DNA of 64,000 bases from contig NZ_BAAAWH010000001.1 of the NCBI RefSeq assembly GCF_039534975.1, positions 3,224,001 to 3,288,000 on the forward strand, written 5' to 3'. The notes below the pieces were generated by a model. It had not been told where the DNA came from. It saw nothing but the letters and a program-made list of their open reading frames with translations, and ran no database searches. Positions 47,987 to 58,636 of this stretch are shown in pieces (within the stretch, counting starts at the first letter, position 1; each line of letters opens with the position of its first letter). This DNA comes from Microbacterium terregens (GTDB lineage Bacteria; Actinomycetota; Actinomycetes; Actinomycetales; Microbacteriaceae). Position numbers and translations under genes: made by a program.

Positions 47987-49303
47987 TCAGCGGAAGTCCG
48001 AGACGTACGACTCGTATTCGTCGCCGAGCGCCTTCTGCACGTCGGCAGACGACTTGGTGCCGTTCACGAGCTCCTGCAGTTCGGCGACGAGCGTGTCGTA
48101 GAACGTCGGGGTCGGCCAGTCGGGATAGAACGACAGTCCGTCCTTCTCGTTGACGGCGTTGAACGCCTCGATCAGCTCGAGGCTCTTCGCGTCGGTGATG
48201 TCGGCAGTGTCGGCGGCGACGGGCAGGCCGCCGTTGTTGCCGATCAGCGCCTGGATCTCGGGGCGCATCGTGATGTCGATGAACTCGTACGCGAGCTCCT
48301 TGTTCGCGGCGCGCTCCGGCACGACCCACAGGTTGCCCGAGGAACCGAGGCTGAGGTCGCTGTCCGGGAACGGGAAGATGCCGAAGTCGAAGTCGGTGAT
48401 CTCGTTGACGAACCGGCCGTACCACCAGCTGCCCGACACGAAGATCGGGGCGGTGCCGTTGATGAACGAGACGCCCGCGTCTTCGGCCTTGACACCGGAC
48501 ACGTCCGGATCGATGTAGCCCTTGTCGACGTAGTCCAGCAGAGTCTCGGTCGCGTACGTGATCTCTTCGCCCTGCCAGTCGACCGGGTTCTCGTACAGCT
48601 GGTAGTCGTTCACGAACTGGCGGTCGGCCTGGCTCAATGCGAGCTGGTACCAGAGCTGACCGAGGGGGTACTCCAGCCCGGCCTCGGCGAGCGGCGTGAT
48701 GCCCTGCTCGACGAACGCGTCGAGCACCGCGGTGAACTCGTCGTAGGTGGTCGGGATCTCCAGACCTGCCGCGGCGAACGCATCCTTGTTGTAGTAGACG
48801 GTGACGAACTCGCCGTAGTTCGGGACGCCGAACCAGGAGCCGGAGCCCATGACGCCATCCTCGTTGTACGTGGCGGTGGTCTGCAGCGCGGGGGCGAGCT
48901 TCTCGTCCCAGCCGTACTCACCGACCGCGTCGGTGATGTCCGTGAGCAGCCCCTGGCTCGCGAGCAGGCCGGCGGTGGCGTTGCCCTTGTTGAACTCCAT
49001 GATGTCGGGGGCTTCGTCGGAGTTGAGGACCTGGCTCGCCGTCGAGCGGATCTGCTCGAAGCTCTTCTCCTCGAACTCGACCGTCGCGCCGGTCTCCTCT
49101 TCGAAGACCTTGATCGCTTCGGCCCACGCGATTCCCATGGCGCTGTCCGCGCCCTCGTAGTGCCAGAGCTTCAGGGTGTCGCCGGCTTCTCCGCCGGAGT
49201 CGGACGATCCGCCTGAGCAGGCGGCGAGCGCGAGGCCGGCGATCGTCAGCGAACTGACGAGGGCGATTCCCCGCTTGGCGTTTGTTCGGATAGTGCGTGC
49301 CAT
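47987..49303 (-). CDS. Extracellular sugar-binding lipoprotein of an ABC transporter
   Basis: A 438-residue solute-binding protein of the MalE-like family. An N-terminal basic and hydrophobic signal sequence ends in a lipobox (LALAAC) near residue 28, so it is anchored outside the membrane. The mature protein begins with a glycine/serine linker (SGGSSDSGGEAGD) and continues with LKLWHYEGADSAMGIAWAEAIKVFEEETG, typical of the family. I start at ATG 49303, nine bases after AAGAAAGGA; an ATG three codons upstream is too close to that site. It is the first gene of the operon under a LacI operator. Confidence 0.93.
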   Translation of the reverse strand: MARTIRTNAKRGIALVSSLTIAGLALAACSGGSSDSGGEAGDTLKLWHYEGADSAMGIAWAEAIKVFEEETGATVEFEEKSFEQIRSTASQVLNSDEAPDIMEFNKGNATAGLLASQGLLTDITDAVGEYGWDEKLAPALQTTATYNEDGVMGSGSWFGVPNYGEFVTVYYNKDAFAAAGLEIPTTYDEFTAVLDAFVEQGITPLAEAGLEYPLGQLWYQLALSQADRQFVNDYQLYENPVDWQGEEITYATETLLDYVDKGYIDPDVSGVKAEDAGVSFINGTAPIFVSGSWWYGRFVNEITDFDFGIFPFPDSDLSLGSSGNLWVVPERAANKELAYEFIDITMRPEIQALIGNNGGLPVAADTADITDAKSLELIEAFNAVNEKDGLSFYPDWPTPTFYDTLVAELQELVNGTKSSADVQKALGDEYESYVSDFR

Positions 49304-49358
49304 CAGTGGCATTCCTTTCTTGGTGACCGGCAGTGGTCGGGACGGATGATCTGGGTAT

Positions 49359-49372
49359 TGAAGCGCTTCGAC
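49359..49372. promoter_or_regulatory. LacI-type operator upstream of the sugar operon
   Basis: The palindrome TGAAGCGCTTCGA (core GAAGCGCTTC at 49360-49369) lies 57 bases upstream of the binding-protein start. The same 10-base core occurs upstream of the divergent-side regulator gene. LacI-family repressors bind such symmetrical sites, so the sugar operon is probably repressed by the adjacent LacI protein until the sugar is present. Confidence 0.82.
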
Positions 49373-49406
49373 GATCGGCGAAGGAAAAGAGCGGTGACGG
49401 AGGGGA

Positions 49407-50477
49407 TCAGTGCACCGCCTCCTCGCGGTGGATATCCGAATCCGTGGCGGGGCCCGGCTCGGGCGCGCGGTGGACCGATGCGACCGACCCGTGCGACTCG
49501 TAGGTGGGAGGGATGAGCCGAAGTCCCGGTTCCGGACGATCGTCGCCAAGGCTGCGGATCGCCAGCGAGACGGCCAGATCGCAGGACGCCTCCGGCACGA
49601 GCGGGATCGAATCGACGGGAGTCGCGAGGGCACCGGTGTCGAACGAGGCGCCCACCGAGACGACCGAGACGTCGCCGGGGACGTTCAGGCCGCGCTCGGC
49701 CAGCTCGGCGAGGACGACCGCATGGGCCTCTTCGGTGCAGTGCAGGACGAACGCAGTCGCCCCGGCATCCAGCAGTTGAGAGACCGTGCGCCGTGTCGCG
49801 GTGCGGCTCGTTCGCTTGGTGCCCGTGGTTCCGAAGGCGGCCTGGAGGCCTCGTCTCTCTGCCGTGGCCTCGAAGGCGGAACGCACGCGCGGCGGGAAGT
49901 TGGACTTCGCGTAACTCACGTCAGGCTGGCCGACCAGTCCGAGCGACGTGTGACCGGCATCCGCGAGCCGATCCACCGCGAGCGCGGCGGCGGCGGCGAA
50001 GTCGAGGTCGACGCAGACCAGCCCGTCGGAGTCGTCGGGCACACCGATGAAGATCGTCGGCGTCGAGATGGCCCGGGCGAGCACGACCCGTTCGTCGTCG
50101 GGCGCGACGTCGAGGACGAGAATCGCGTCGACCAGCCCGTTCGCGGCCACCCGGCTCATGCCGGCCTTCGCGTCTTCGTCGGTGAGCAGGAGGATGTCAT
50201 AATCGCTGCGCCGGGCGGCGACCGCGGTCGCGAGGACGAACGCCATGTGTGTCGGCGCGTGCGTGTCTCGACGGAGCGGCTCGGTGAGGGCGAAGATCTG
50301 CGTCCGACTGCCCGCGAGCATGCGGGCACCGGCGTTGGGGCTGTAGCCGAGCGTGCGGACCGCTTCTTCGATGCGGCGTCGCGTGGCGGGCGAGATCGGT
50401 CGTTTGCCGCTCAGCGCGTACGAGACGGTGCTGATGGACACGCCGGCAGCCGCAGCCACCTCGTTGATCTTCACCAT
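49407..50477 (-). CDS. LacI-family transcriptional repressor of the sugar operon
   Basis: A 356-residue repressor. The N-terminal helix-turn-helix is INEVAAAAGVSISTVSYALSGKRPIS with the hinge helix to about residue 60. The following periplasmic-binding-like domain has the usual ligand-binding stretches (ILLLTDEDAKAGM, VDAILVLDVAPDD, VVSVGASFDTGALATPVDSIP). It sits directly upstream of the sugar operon on the same strand, and matching GAAGCGCTTC palindromes lie before both. The start is ATG 50477, with a GTG one codon later as an alternative. The ligand is probably a sugar or sugar phosphate released from the oligosaccharide. Confidence 0.92.
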   Translation of the reverse strand: MVKINEVAAAAGVSISTVSYALSGKRPISPATRRRIEEAVRTLGYSPNAGARMLAGSRTQIFALTEPLRRDTHAPTHMAFVLATAVAARRSDYDILLLTDEDAKAGMSRVAANGLVDAILVLDVAPDDERVVLARAISTPTIFIGVPDDSDGLVCVDLDFAAAAALAVDRLADAGHTSLGLVGQPDVSYAKSNFPPRVRSAFEATAERRGLQAAFGTTGTKRTSRTATRRTVSQLLDAGATAFVLHCTEEAHAVVLAELAERGLNVPGDVSVVSVGASFDTGALATPVDSIPLVPEASCDLAVSLAIRSLGDDRPEPGLRLIPPTYESHGSVASVHRAPEPGPATDSDIHREEAVH

Positions 50478-50562: not shown

Positions 50563-50724
50563 GATGGAGATACTAAGCGCAGTTCTGCGAGGAGTGCAAG
50601 GGGTTTGGTGGATTGGCCAACATATGACGCGCAGACACTTTGCCGCACCCGACCGCCGTCGGCCCGGAGTCGACTGAGCAATCTGTAACATTCCGTCACG
50701 CGCGCCCCGCGTGGAGTGTGCGAT

Positions 50725-50754
50725 TTGACGCACGAGGACGCAGTCGGACATAAT
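50725..50754 (+). promoter_or_regulatory. Consensus-like promoter of the cysteine-rich leader gene
   Basis: TTGACG (50725-50730) and CATAAT (50749-50754) are 18 bases apart, the best -35/-10 pair I found in the window. The transcription start should fall at about 50761-50762, that is, on the A of the leader-peptide ATG. Confidence 0.78.
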
Positions 50755-50761
50755 CGGGCAC

Positions 50762-50860
50762 ATGACTGACAACGCGCGTTCTCTGTCCGCCTGGGAGGCG
50801 AACGGGACTGCCGGCATGATGGCCGGCCGCATCGTCATGTGTTGTCGAATGTGTCGCTGA
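50762..50860 (+). CDS. Cysteine-rich leader peptide, 32 residues, probably leaderless
   Basis: A 33-codon reading frame begins at the predicted transcription start and ends in ...GRIVMCCRMCR before TGA. Three cysteine codons fall in the last six sense codons (CC-R-M-C-R). The mRNA would have no 5' leader, so translation starts at the first base. In Actinobacteria short leaderless upstream ORFs with cysteine clusters are known to attenuate downstream sulfur-metabolism genes when cysteine is plentiful, by letting the ribosome finish the peptide. The arrangement here, promoter to peptide to an inverted repeat to a regulator gene 193 bases downstream, fits that model. This interpretation is inference. 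Confidence 0.72.
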   Translation: MTDNARSLSAWEANGTAGMMAGRIVMCCRMCR

Positions 50861-50876
50861 CACGGTGACCCCCGCC

Positions 50877-50913
50877 GGATCCTCCCGCAGCTTCTGAACG
50901 CCGCGCAGGATCC
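50877..50913 (+). promoter_or_regulatory. Inverted repeat after the leader peptide (possible attenuator)
   Basis: GGATCCT (50877-50883) and AGGATCC (50907-50913) are perfectly complementary, with 23 bases between them, starting 17 bases after the leader stop. A second short stem, GGCCC..GGGCC, lies further downstream in the same leader region, near 50970. Alternative pairing between these could switch transcription or translation of the regulator. Only the pairing is seen; the switch is inferred. Confidence 0.45.
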
Positions 50914-51052
50914 CCGAGCATCCACAAGCGCGTCGATCACGCGCACGTCGGACGCCTCGCACCCCAGGCCCGCCATCGGGGCCGATCAGCAGCACAGCCG
51001 AACCCGCTCCACGTCGATCACGGCCAGGGTTCCATCGCAAGGACCACATCTC

Positions 51053-51790
51053 ATGTCGAACACCGCTCTCCTCGAACGTCCCGCGGCCGCGCGTCACCTT
51101 CGCGCCGTCCCGACGGCCCCGACCGCCGAAGCTCTGGCGCCGGCTCCCGTCGACGCCGCCCCCTCACCGCGGCACCTGCCACCGGGCACCGCGCCGCGCG
51201 GCTTCGCCCTCTACGTCGGCATCGATGAGGCGAAGGCCGCGGCATCCGGAGTCTCGCTCGGAGTGCTGGTCGACGCGCTGCGCCGCACCCTCGCCGAACT
51301 CGCCCCGGATGCCGAGACCTATGCGACCGTCGCGCTGGCGCCGGTCGGCGCCGGTGGCCGGGACGTCGACGTCGTACGCCTGGCCCTGCACGAGCCGTCC
51401 GCGATCGCCCGGACCAAGCAGGACGAGCCCGAGGACGAAGACCGCCTGCACGGTGGAGTCGTCGTGGACATCTCGCGCAAGCGTGTGCTGATCGACGGCG
51501 AATCCGCCGCGTTCACCTTCAAGGAGTTCGAGCTGCTGCAGTACCTGGTGCTGCGGGAGGGACGCACGATCGAGCGGACCGAGCTCGTCGGATCGCTCTG
51601 GCAGGGCGTCACCGAGGACGAGTCTCCAGGCGAGCGCACGATCGACGTGCACGTGCGGCGTCTGCGGGCCAAGCTCGGCCGGTACGAAGACATCGTGCGG
51701 ACGGTGCGCGGGGTGGGCTACCGCTTCGACCGCCACGCCGACGTGTCGATCCGCTACGGCCACGGCACCCCCTCGCCCGACCGCTTCTGA
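51053..51790 (+). CDS. Winged-helix (OmpR/PhoB-type) DNA-binding protein without receiver domain
   Basis: A 245-residue regulator. The C-terminal 95 residues form an OmpR/PhoB-type winged helix: FTFKEFELLQYLVLREGRTIERTELV, then ERTIDVHVRRLRAKLGRYEDIVRTVRGVGYRFD. The N-terminal 140 residues are not a phospho-receiver. They start with a Pro/Ala-rich stretch of about 45 residues, then a short domain (GFALYVGIDEAKAAASGVSLGVLVDALRRTL) I do not recognise. So the protein does not receive a phosphate signal from a partner kinase by the usual means. The ribosome site is AAGGA, eleven bases upstream. Its only upstream partner is the cysteine-rich leader, suggesting control by cysteine availability. Confidence 0.82.
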   Translation: MSNTALLERPAAARHLRAVPTAPTAEALAPAPVDAAPSPRHLPPGTAPRGFALYVGIDEAKAAASGVSLGVLVDALRRTLAELAPDAETYATVALAPVGAGGRDVDVVRLALHEPSAIARTKQDEPEDEDRLHGGVVVDISRKRVLIDGESAAFTFKEFELLQYLVLREGRTIERTELVGSLWQGVTEDESPGERTIDVHVRRLRAKLGRYEDIVRTVRGVGYRFDRHADVSIRYGHGTPSPDRF

Positions 51791-51840
51791 GCCACCGGCC
51801 GCCTGCGCCCGCGCCGCGCGCCCCGCGCGCCCCGCCCCGC

Positions 51841-51959
51841 TCCCCTGTCACAACACGCCGACTCGGCGCGCACATTGCGACAGGGGAGCAACACGACGCC
51901 CGTCCGCCCCCCCGCTCGCCTGTCGCAACACGCCGATGCGGGGCGCCGGTTGCGACAGG
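51841..51959. repeat. Third intergenic array: two 41-bp inverted-repeat elements
   Basis: Copies at 51844-51884 and 51919-51959 share the arms CCTGTC(A/G)CAA and TTGCGACAGG and the same 21-base spacing as the arrays at 2.8 and 31.7 kb. In the first the match extends outward to TCCC...GGGA, giving 13-base arms with one G-T pair; in the second the arms are perfect over 11 bases. The array lies between the winged-helix gene and the glycosylase gene, with no gene inside. Confidence 0.87.
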
Positions 51960-51999
51960 GGAACGACGGATGTCCGGACCCGCCGCGTAACCTGGGCGC

Positions 52000-57083: not shown

Positions 57084-57962
57084 CTACCGGGCGCTGGTGA
57101 TCGTGGCGGAGCCGGCCGAGACGGTGACGTTGACGACGTTCCGAGCACCCGCATCGGTGCGCAGTTCGTTGTGGAACTCACCCGCCGACACGTCCGACTG
57201 GACGTCGTACGAGCCGTCAGGCAGCCGCAGATCGAGCGAGCCGGCGCTGACGTCGACCGTCACCGTCCGCGGCGGCGATCCCTCCAGCCGCGCATCGATC
57301 GTCCCGGCGCTCACCGTGAACTCGGCCTCCGCCACGTCGGTGAGGTCGATGTCCGCTCCGCCGGCGCTGAGGTCGGCGAGAAGCGTCTTCGCGGATCCGT
57401 CGACGGTGAGCGAGCCCGCGCTGACCTCGATGTCGAGGGCACCGAAGTCTCCGTCGACAGTGAGGTCGCCCGCGGACAGGTCGAGGTCGGCATCCAGAGT
57501 CGCACCCTCGATGTCCCGCGGGAGTGTCAGGGTCGCCTTCACGTCCTCGCCGAAGAAGAACCATCCGGGACCGAATCTGCGTGGTGATTCGACGTTCAAT
57601 TCGTCGCCGTCGCGCTCCAGGGTCCAGGGGCCGACGCCGGCGCCGCTGGTCACCTCGAGGGTCGCCTCCACGACGTCGTCGAACTCGATCCGCAGGGCTG
57701 CCCCATTGACGGAGATGTCCAAATCGGTGACGCCGGCCGCGTCGATCGACTGCGACTCGGTGTGCACGCTCGCGGCGGCGATCGTCGAGAACGTCGCGGA
57801 GCCGATTGCGCCGAGCACGACCGCCCCGCCGAGTGCGATGGTCAGGATGGCCACGACCCGCGATGCGCCCCGCGTCTCACGGTTCTGCGGCGGAGTGGGC
57901 GTCACCGGGCGCGCGGCGTCCGGCGGATAGGTCGGGCGGGCGGGGTCGGTCGGGGTGCTCAT
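57084..57962 (-). CDS. DUF4097 family membrane-anchored beta-repeat protein
   Basis: A 292-residue protein with a proline-rich cytoplasmic start (about 25 residues), one membrane segment VVAILTIALGGAVVLGAIGSATF, and a long extracytoplasmic part made of repeated beta-strand units: LDISVNGAALRIEF, LDADLDLSAGDLTVDG, LDIEVSAGSLTVDG, FTVSAGTIDARLEG, VDVSAGSLDLRLPDG, SDVSAGEFHNEL. This is the DUF4097 (putative adhesin) pattern. Gene order histidine kinase, response regulator, DUF4097 with four-base overlap suggests that the kinase pair reports cell-envelope state and that this protein is either an output or a sensor partner. Confidence 0.88.
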   Translation of the reverse strand: MSTPTDPARPTYPPDAARPVTPTPPQNRETRGASRVVAILTIALGGAVVLGAIGSATFSTIAAASVHTESQSIDAAGVTDLDISVNGAALRIEFDDVVEATLEVTSGAGVGPWTLERDGDELNVESPRRFGPGWFFFGEDVKATLTLPRDIEGATLDADLDLSAGDLTVDGDFGALDIEVSAGSLTVDGSAKTLLADLSAGGADIDLTDVAEAEFTVSAGTIDARLEGSPPRTVTVDVSAGSLDLRLPDGSYDVQSDVSAGEFHNELRTDAGARNVVNVTVSAGSATITSAR

Positions 57963-58636
57963 GAAGGTGCTCCTGCCTGCGGCTGTCCGCCGCCGTATTC
58001 GAGGTGGACGAGCGCTGCGAGCACTCGTCTGTTGCCGGATTCGTCCGGTTCGAGATCGAGCTTCTGGAAGATCGCGGTGATGTACTTCTCGACGCTGGCC
58101 TCAGAGACGAACAGCGTCGAGGCGATCGCCTGGTTGGATTTTCCTTCGGCGATGAGCGCGAGCGTCGACGCTTCGCGATCGGTGAGACGACGCATCCGTT
58201 CGTCCTGCGGTCGCCGGCTCAGCAGTTGCGCGACGACTTCGGGGTCGAGCACGGTCGCGCCTTCGCTGATCCGGGTGATCGCGTCGAGGAAGTCGGTCAC
58301 GTCGGCGACCCGGTCCTTGAGCAGGTAGCCGAGCGCACCTCCCTGTGCCGTGATGAGGTCGGTGGCGTAGCGCTCTTCGACGTATTGCGACAGCACGACC
58401 ACCGGAAGCGCCGGGTGCTGCGCGCGCAGCCGGAGTGCGGCACGGATTCCCTCATCGGTGAAGGTGGGCGGCAGTCTCACATCGAGGATGCACAGATCCG
58501 GCGAGGTGTCGGCGACCGTCTGGTCGAGCAGCGTCGCATCCGGCAGTGCCGCGACCACGATGTGCTTGGCATCCTCCAGCAGCCGCACCAGACCTTCGCG
58601 CAGCAGGACCGAGTCCTCGCAGATCAGGATGCGCAC
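57959..58636 (-). CDS. Response regulator, NarL/LuxR type
   Basis: A 225-residue regulator. The receiver domain has the phospho-acceptor Asp52 in DLCILDVRLPP and the acidic pair at residues 7-8 (ICEDS). The C-terminal LuxR-type HTH is LTDREASTLALIAEGKSNQAIASTLFVSEASVEKYITAIFQKL. It accepts phosphate from the histidine kinase whose gene overlaps its start by 13 bases, and its stop overlaps the DUF4097 gene, so all three are translationally coupled. The LiaR-like pairing with an envelope-type output is noted. Confidence 0.94.
   Translation of the reverse strand: MRILICEDSVLLREGLVRLLEDAKHIVVAALPDATLLDQTVADTSPDLCILDVRLPPTFTDEGIRAALRLRAQHPALPVVVLSQYVEERYATDLITAQGGALGYLLKDRVADVTDFLDAITRISEGATVLDPEVVAQLLSRRPQDERMRRLTDREASTLALIAEGKSNQAIASTLFVSEASVEKYITAIFQKLDLEPDESGNRRVLAALVHLEYGGGQPQAGAPS

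Follow-up and report, generated by a model that had tools for sequence, protein, structure and literature searches.

We propose that a small open reading frame (ORF) of Microbacterium terregens is a sulfur-amino-acid-responsive leader, similar in kind to the polycysteine leaders of mycobacteria, and that it controls a starvation regulator encoded downstream of it; we would put the probability of this reading at about 0.6. What is already supported is the conservation of the leader, its frame, the spacing of its promoter, the constraint on its codons, its richness in methionine and cysteine, and the exclusion of these two residues from the regulator. Also supported are the enrichment of a segment complementary to the cysteine codons (anti-Cys) and the pairing, kept with changed arms, of a hairpin preceding the Shine-Dalgarno (SD) sequence of the regulator. 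The transcription start site, translation, stalling, the direction of the response, the RNA switch and the regulon belong to the part of the explanation that we infer.

The window, i.e. the whole stretch of DNA that was analysed, comprises 64,000 nt of contig NZ_BAAAWH010000001.1 (3,224,001-3,288,000, forward strand); all coordinates below refer to it, and features lie on its plus strand unless marked (-). The first-pass annotation had placed the best promoter of the window in front of a 32-residue frame with a cysteine-rich end, and this proved correct on both counts. A promoter scan found a -35 box TTGACG (50725-50730) and, 18 nt further, a -10 box CATAAT (50749-50754), so that the promoter spans 50725-50754; with 10 of 12 matches it is the best of the three sigma-70-like sites passing the scan (9/12 for the other two). 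The ORF scan together with conservation delimits the leader at 50762-50860, encoding MTDNARSLSAWEANGTAGMMAGRIVMCCRMCR of 32 residues before the stop and ending CCRMCR. The number of sigma-70-like sites is in itself close to chance (one in 20 kb vs 1.3 in shuffled sequences; one between 49000 and 53000 vs 0.2), and it is its conservation in all usable loci of the same and of other genera that takes the position of this promoter beyond chance. In no fewer than 111 of the 132 loci, a TTGAC-like sequence starts 35-38 nt 5′ of the leader ATG, the script having used the last match, by which 18 other loci fell on second matches, and three having no match. The leader ATG at 50762 starts 8 nt after the -10 box and is not preceded by an SD sequence. 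Given this short distance and the missing SD, a leaderless start is plausible; the leader ORF is thus probably leaderless, and transcription is predicted to start at its ATG or adjoining it.

About 25 nt 5′ of the -35 box lies a direct-repeat-like element, GTAACATTCCGTCAC (50685-50699; GTMAC-N5-GTMAC), which recurs in many of the genus loci and which their comparison brought out as a candidate regulator site. Its pattern, GTMACANNNCGTMAC, has a single occurrence in the genome of the window and was found in 10 of 69 genus genomes, in nine of them at the leader locus by coordinates (the other case is in genome G046), and on these counts no regulon is ascribed to it. Further upstream, there is a divergent gene for a LacI-type regulator (49407-50477, -), which in 10 genus loci was recovered as a neighbour of the leader, with most of the fetched flanks too short to judge, and a gene whose translation reads as a sugar-binding ABC protein (47987-49633, -).

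The leader is present in all 61 usable same-genus loci, always before the same winged-helix regulator, and, in a scan based on its Cys-Arg-Met (CRM) end, in all 60 loci taken from 55 other genera of Microbacteriaceae, a family found in soil and on plants (59 of the same 60 passed a cysteine-based scan). The same-genus set was made of 62 fetched loci out of 67 with a strong match (G016, G023, G030, G055 and G064 were left out), and one of these, L016, is cut by a contig end; 11 further same-genus loci also carry the leader. As L138, L140 and L141 were fetched again from genomes that the count already includes, the set of 132 loci stands for 129 genomes, the set of 117 (132 minus 15 loci without a recognised regulator start) for 114, and the genus set of 70 for 67. 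An independent named collection had the leader in 50 of its first 64 loci, drawn from the best 80 of 591 relatives (L227 is doubtful). It was not found in the other 14, of which 12 are Micrococcaceae-type, Agrococcus or Rhodoluna records, and two are L210, with 46 nt upstream, and one Microbacteriaceae MAG; the ten Micrococcaceae-type misses include Kocuria, Micrococcus, Nesterenkonia, Rothia, Citricoccus, Yaniella and two Arthrobacter. L151 lacks the leader as well, and the upstream DNA of L148 is too short to judge. Two hits in other families that we inspected (L177 from G085 and L178 from G090) gave no leader-like ORF, and a search of the window's genome for second copies found TGYTGYCGNATGTGY once.

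In a test that was not conditioned on the frame, the promoter-proximal ATG was in frame with the TGYCGAATG core in all 144 distinct placeable cases. The stop codons differ among relatives (TGA, TAG or TAA), indels preserve the frame, and pN/pS across 56 distinct genus leaders is 0.49. Across genera, the peptide is conserved over most of its length (LTSxEAxGxAGMMMP...CRM), and it is much shortened in L090, L098, L104 and L126. The conserved leader bears the marks of a leaderless, translated ORF and has a conserved link to the regulator. A chance ORF is ruled out by the conservation within and outside the genus and by the frame test. A literature search judged by titles gave no report that we recognised as this leader or its regulator.

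The leader had been taken for a candidate cysteine-responsive attenuator with a terminal cysteine cluster, a reading that the absence of conserved C-terminal cysteines upstream of orthologous regulators was to refute; across the genus and the other genera, these cysteines are indeed conserved. However, the conserved element is TGY CGA ATG (Cys-Arg-Met; 50843-50851, with CGA at 50846-50848), and some leaders have a single cysteine. The Cys before Arg, the CGA codon and the ATG are each found in 132 of 132 loci, while another Cys directly precedes the core Cys in 124 (the remaining 8 are without the first Cys of the pair) and another directly follows the core in 128. CGA is a rare codon, which the regulator genes use for 63 of their 2,388 Arg (about 3%). 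It was found in 85 of 86 distinct other-genus leaders, and the lone exception, L212, fits a misaligned row, with a second Arg present and its own TGCCGAATG. Clavibacter leaders keep one Cys only, ending SCRMSA or SCRMPA; contiguous Cys codons near the ORF end, present in the window as CC, are absent from them and from some others. These one-Cys leaders and the 8 loci without the first Cys imply that the cysteine run is not essential, and its dispensability in Clavibacter weakens a simple cysteine-cluster picture and is to us the main unexplained fact. Natural variants occur also as Cys-to-Pro in L002 (MPCRMC), as Cys-to-Arg in L021 (MRCRMC) and in several Curtobacterium leaders (MRCRMCA), and all of these may serve as natural tests of the number of cysteines required.

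Other codons are fixed against usage too, namely ACT in column 2 (51 of 79 Thr), TCC in column 10 (57/60 Ser), GGG in column 21 (56/64 Gly) and ACT in column 22 (29/38 Thr), and together with CGA they indicate that the nucleotide sequence of the leader is constrained beyond the peptide. Cysteine as the hallmark of the leader therefore stands only in part: the end is rich in it, but methionine is equally prominent and the codon constraint extends outside the cysteines. Plain cysteine sensing would give no account of the constraint on the CGA, GGG and ACT codons. The invariant CGA raises the question of how codon identity, beyond the amino acid, sets what the leader senses.

Methionine and cysteine make up 23.9% of leader residues, with the start Met excluded (132 loci), and 116 of the 132 leaders have three Cys within their last 8 residues. 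The regulator has the opposite composition: 113 of 117 orthologues are without internal Met and 116 without Cys, and among the best 120 of 7,087 database homologues the respective numbers are 118 and 120. Winged-helix domains are Met/Cys-poor in general; of 20 OmpR-type paralogues from the genus, whose starts were picked by length, none is free of Cys and 17 contain internal Met. Met or Cys account for 0 of 516 variant residue types of the regulator in the genus and for 3 of 866 in the family, as compared with 46 of 957 in an AlkA-like neighbour, taken from 68 loci, and 8 of 396 in the LacI gene, taken from 10; the binomial P for 0/516 is 9e-12 or 3e-5 depending on the yardstick, with variant types being non-independent draws. 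By heuristic gene calls, 2 of 31 genes in the window are free of both internal Met and Cys, the other one (57087-57965, -; 292 aa) reading as a secreted-looking repeat protein.

In 18 aligned regulators, the residue after the initiator Met is Ser or Thr, and thus this Met is expected to be removed; as only the initiator Met and no Cys are needed, the regulator should be makeable during sulfur starvation. We read this composition as the outcome of selection for a protein that can still be synthesised under a shortage of sulfur amino acids, and as such it lends independent support to a role in sulfur starvation. Sulfur sparing is described for Rhodococcus qingshengii IGTS8 (PMC8557817). The likeness to that case lies in the low Met/Cys content of proteins made under sulfur limitation, and the difference is that here we deal with a transcription regulator and with a near-total exclusion across a family.

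The regulator gene itself (51053-51790) encodes an OmpR/PhoB-type winged-helix protein without internal Met and without Cys (PF00486, 71.5 bits), which bears out the DNA-binding protein gene that had been noted downstream of the leader. A Pfam search gave PF00486 only, with no receiver domain, and the listed NCBIfam matches are to the C-terminal part. The AlphaFold model is confident in the C-terminal winged helix, which is of the OmpR/PhoB kind, and of low confidence in the N-terminal half. At E<=1e-30, 240 of the 249 family genomes have a match to the regulator, as do 84 of the 85 genera, with a single match in 237 of these genomes and two in 3; at a loose cut, which lets paralogues in, its family was matched in 118 of 118 relatives. 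We know of no sulfur regulator assigned in these genera, and the protein may be regarded as a near-universal candidate for one (240/249 family genomes), with an input that can be tested.

Several RNA elements might connect the leader with this gene. A hairpin within the leader, GCCGGC-ATGATG-GCCGGC (50810-50827), is formed with GGC/GCC or GGG/CCC arms by two groups of relatives; a third group has GGC/CCC arms and lacks one of the pairs. The inverted repeat reported after the leader (GTGTC-GCT-GACAC, 50851-50863) is present at the leader end but is not kept as such among relatives. The spacer (50861-51052), whose length had been given as 193 bases and is in fact 192 nt, is C-rich and G-poor (C 43%, G 26%); C exceeds G in 117 of 117 loci (on average 43% vs 24%), and the DNA 5′ of the promoter is balanced. 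A terminator scan found no intrinsic-terminator-like site in this spacer, and an intrinsic terminator was rejected as the switch for want of a candidate there. With a C-rich, G-poor spacer free of such a site, Rho-dependent control could operate beside translational control.

A hairpin in the spacer, GCGCGT-CGATC-ACGCGC (50928-50944), keeps its pairing with changed arms in L002. Further downstream is the anti-Cys segment GCAGCACA (50989-50996), complementary to UGUGUUGU and recognised by enrichment over shuffles; in the alignment, GCARCAC, the complement of Cys codons, stands directly 5′ of the pre-SD hairpin. Of the 70 genus loci, 28 contain GCARCAC (mean 2.3, maximum 7 in 60 shuffles), and of the 47 loci from other genera, 21 contain CARCAC (shuffle mean 6.2, maximum 11). 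These counts are inflated by relatedness and overlap, as control hexamers also exceed shuffles: CRCACA (29 vs 12.5 in the genus, 17 vs 7.8 in other genera) and GARCAC (22 vs 9.1 in the genus). A change from ATG-TGT to ACG-TGC in L056 and L057 is matched by one from CAGCACA to CAGCACG; L055 has the ACG without the matching change, and one genus clade of the alignment is missing the segment. The pre-SD hairpin, GAACCC...GGGTTC (51000-51032), stops some 20 nt short of the regulator ATG and is followed by the SD sequence AAGGA (51039-51043), an AGGA-like site preceding the ATG in the alignment too. Its arms in the 70 genus loci, found with a script that favoured matching arms, are GAACC/GGTTC in 37, GAGCC/GGCTC in 16, GATCC/GGATC in 3 and imperfect in 6, and none were found in 8.

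In terms of energy, duplexes between Cys segment and spacer are similar to shuffles (mean z -0.30 over 121 loci; 11 within 5 of 100 shuffles), pre-SD stems do not surpass shuffles in strength (7 of 70 and 5 of 47 vs 5.1 and 3.4 expected), and leader plus spacer of the window do not fold with unusual stability (z +0.26). The leader alone has an average z of -0.53 in the genus and of -1.37 in other genera, being slightly better than shuffles in the latter. Local folding was rejected as the sole cause of the nucleotide conservation, the consensus being moderate within the genus (-12.4) and weak outside it (-2.8). A known structured RNA was rejected as well: in five loci no Rfam family reached the gathering score, and two weak hits were far below it.

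The nearest known kind is the polycysteine leaderless short ORFs which, as reportedly described by Canestrari et al. in 2020, act as attenuators in mycobacteria. Such leaders typically control genes of cysteine or sulfur metabolism, which is a typical rather than a defining feature. Our leader shares with them that it is short, that it lies where the mRNA presumably begins, that Cys codons stand towards its end, and that a separately started gene and RNA complementary to the Cys codons follow downstream. Unlike them, it precedes a PF00486 regulator nearly free of Met and Cys and not a cysteine or sulfur metabolism gene, its core, TGY-CGA-ATG, contains a rare codon that never varies while the Cys run can be lost, it is rich in Met, and both peptide and nucleotides are conserved across a non-mycobacterial family.

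In the scenario that we favor, transcription would start at, or directly beside, the ATG of the leader, about one in four of whose residues is Met or Cys, and progress of the ribosome over the UGY-CGA-AUG end, with its Cys, rare Arg and Met codons, would report the supply of sulfur amino acids. If these were short, the ribosome would stall at the end of the leader, and might then prevent pairing between the RNA of the Cys codons and the anti-Cys segment beside the pre-SD hairpin, and/or keep Rho off the C-rich spacer; by either route, the regulator would be made when sulfur amino acids are short. A broader proposition, which we hold to be evenly balanced between true and false, is that Microbacteriaceae and a part of Micrococcaceae share an unrecognised sulfur-starvation switch, consisting of a leaderless leader loaded with Met and Cys, a compulsory CGA after Cys, and a single-copy, Met/Cys-free master regulator, with selection behind their opposite sulfur composition. 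What looks new is the combination of an invariant Cys-CGA-Met, a Met/Cys-rich leader, a regulator excluding both residues, and near-universality in the family. That leader and regulator are opposite in Met/Cys content also gives a sequence signature for which other genomes could be searched.

It had been regarded as unusual that the controlled gene is a regulator; the downstream gene does encode one, but a regulator under an upstream ORF (uORF) is not unprecedented, as whiB7/wblC shows. According to PMC11550727, whiB7/wblC is a transcription factor of Actinobacteria under uORF attenuation with a Rho-independent terminator, also induced by amino-acid starvation. Our locus resembles that system in having a uORF before a transcription factor gene in Actinobacteria, and differs from it in that the spacer at 50861-51052 has no such terminator and that the protein is a winged-helix one (only PF00486 matched) and not WhiB-like. 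A general translation-stress attenuator in the manner of whiB7/wblC, in which any slow translation of the leader, whether due to antibiotics or to shortage of any amino acid, would induce the regulator with the rare CGA as a slow codon, would agree with the precedent, with the invariance of CGA and with the existence of one-Cys leaders. Still, we consider it improbable: the leader, with 24% Met+Cys, precedes a regulator nearly devoid of both, and a terminator-like site of the kind described for whiB7/wblC is missing.

Sulfur-amino-acid sensing is also favoured by the related leaders, with CGA kept, of the Micrococcaceae, whose regulator homologues show 43-49% identity, this identity being the basis on which a part of the loci were labelled Micrococcaceae. 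Their leaders have a different body and a similar end (RCCRMHA, CCCRMQP, CGCRMQA). In the Micrococcaceae-type set, the core was found in 11 of 17 loci, with CGA in each, and a cysteine scan gave a short ORF ending there in 9. Homologues of this type contain 1.19 Met+Cys with the leader core (n=21) vs 2.2 without it (n=15), with a one-sided P, ignoring relatedness, of 0.018 without L230 and of 0.017 or 0.027 with L230 on either side. These leaders bear on the idea of nascent-peptide arrest, in which the peptide in the exit tunnel would stall at C-R(CGA)-M upon a ligand or state such as thiol, and would in this way control the regulator. The invariance of CRM and the conservation of most of the peptide across genera speak for it; yet the Micrococcaceae leaders have only the CRM end in common, the peptide is much shortened in the four loci named above, and much of the conservation is at the nucleotide level, which a peptide alone would not need, so that we think this rather less probable than general translation stress.

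Two genes beyond the regulator, locus L063 of the Micrococcaceae carries a disulfide-reductase-like gene (PF07992/PF02852). This gene, looked for and seen at that locus only, would suit a regulator of oxidation or thiol stress, from which oxidisable Met and Cys would be excluded and whose leader would report thiol damage or loss of Cys-tRNA under oxidants. The contrast between a Met/Cys-rich leader and a Met/Cys-poor regulator would suit it as well, but a Met-rich leader is not predicted by it in itself, and we take it to be quite unlikely. That the small ORF is a working micropeptide (e.g. a metal-binding one) placed before the regulator incidentally would be consistent with pN/pS and the kept frame, but is very hard to believe, with the same gene downstream in every usable same-genus and other-genus locus, constrained synonymous sites, and Clavibacter managing with one Cys.

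As for further neighbours, no sulfur genes were seen adjoining the regulator in annotated neighbourhoods. In two annotated Micrococcaceae loci, the regulator is followed by a gene for a SixA-like phosphatase, and in the genus by one which reads as AlkA-like from its translation, with no family match. Directly after the regulator, at 51819-51967, an imperfect palindrome of 74 nt (CCTGTCRCAACACGC...TTGCGACAGGGG) stands twice in the window, head to tail. The 15-nt core of this palindrome occurs, with at most one mismatch, 46 times in the genome vs 0 for the reversed control, making it a member of a genome-wide repeat family.
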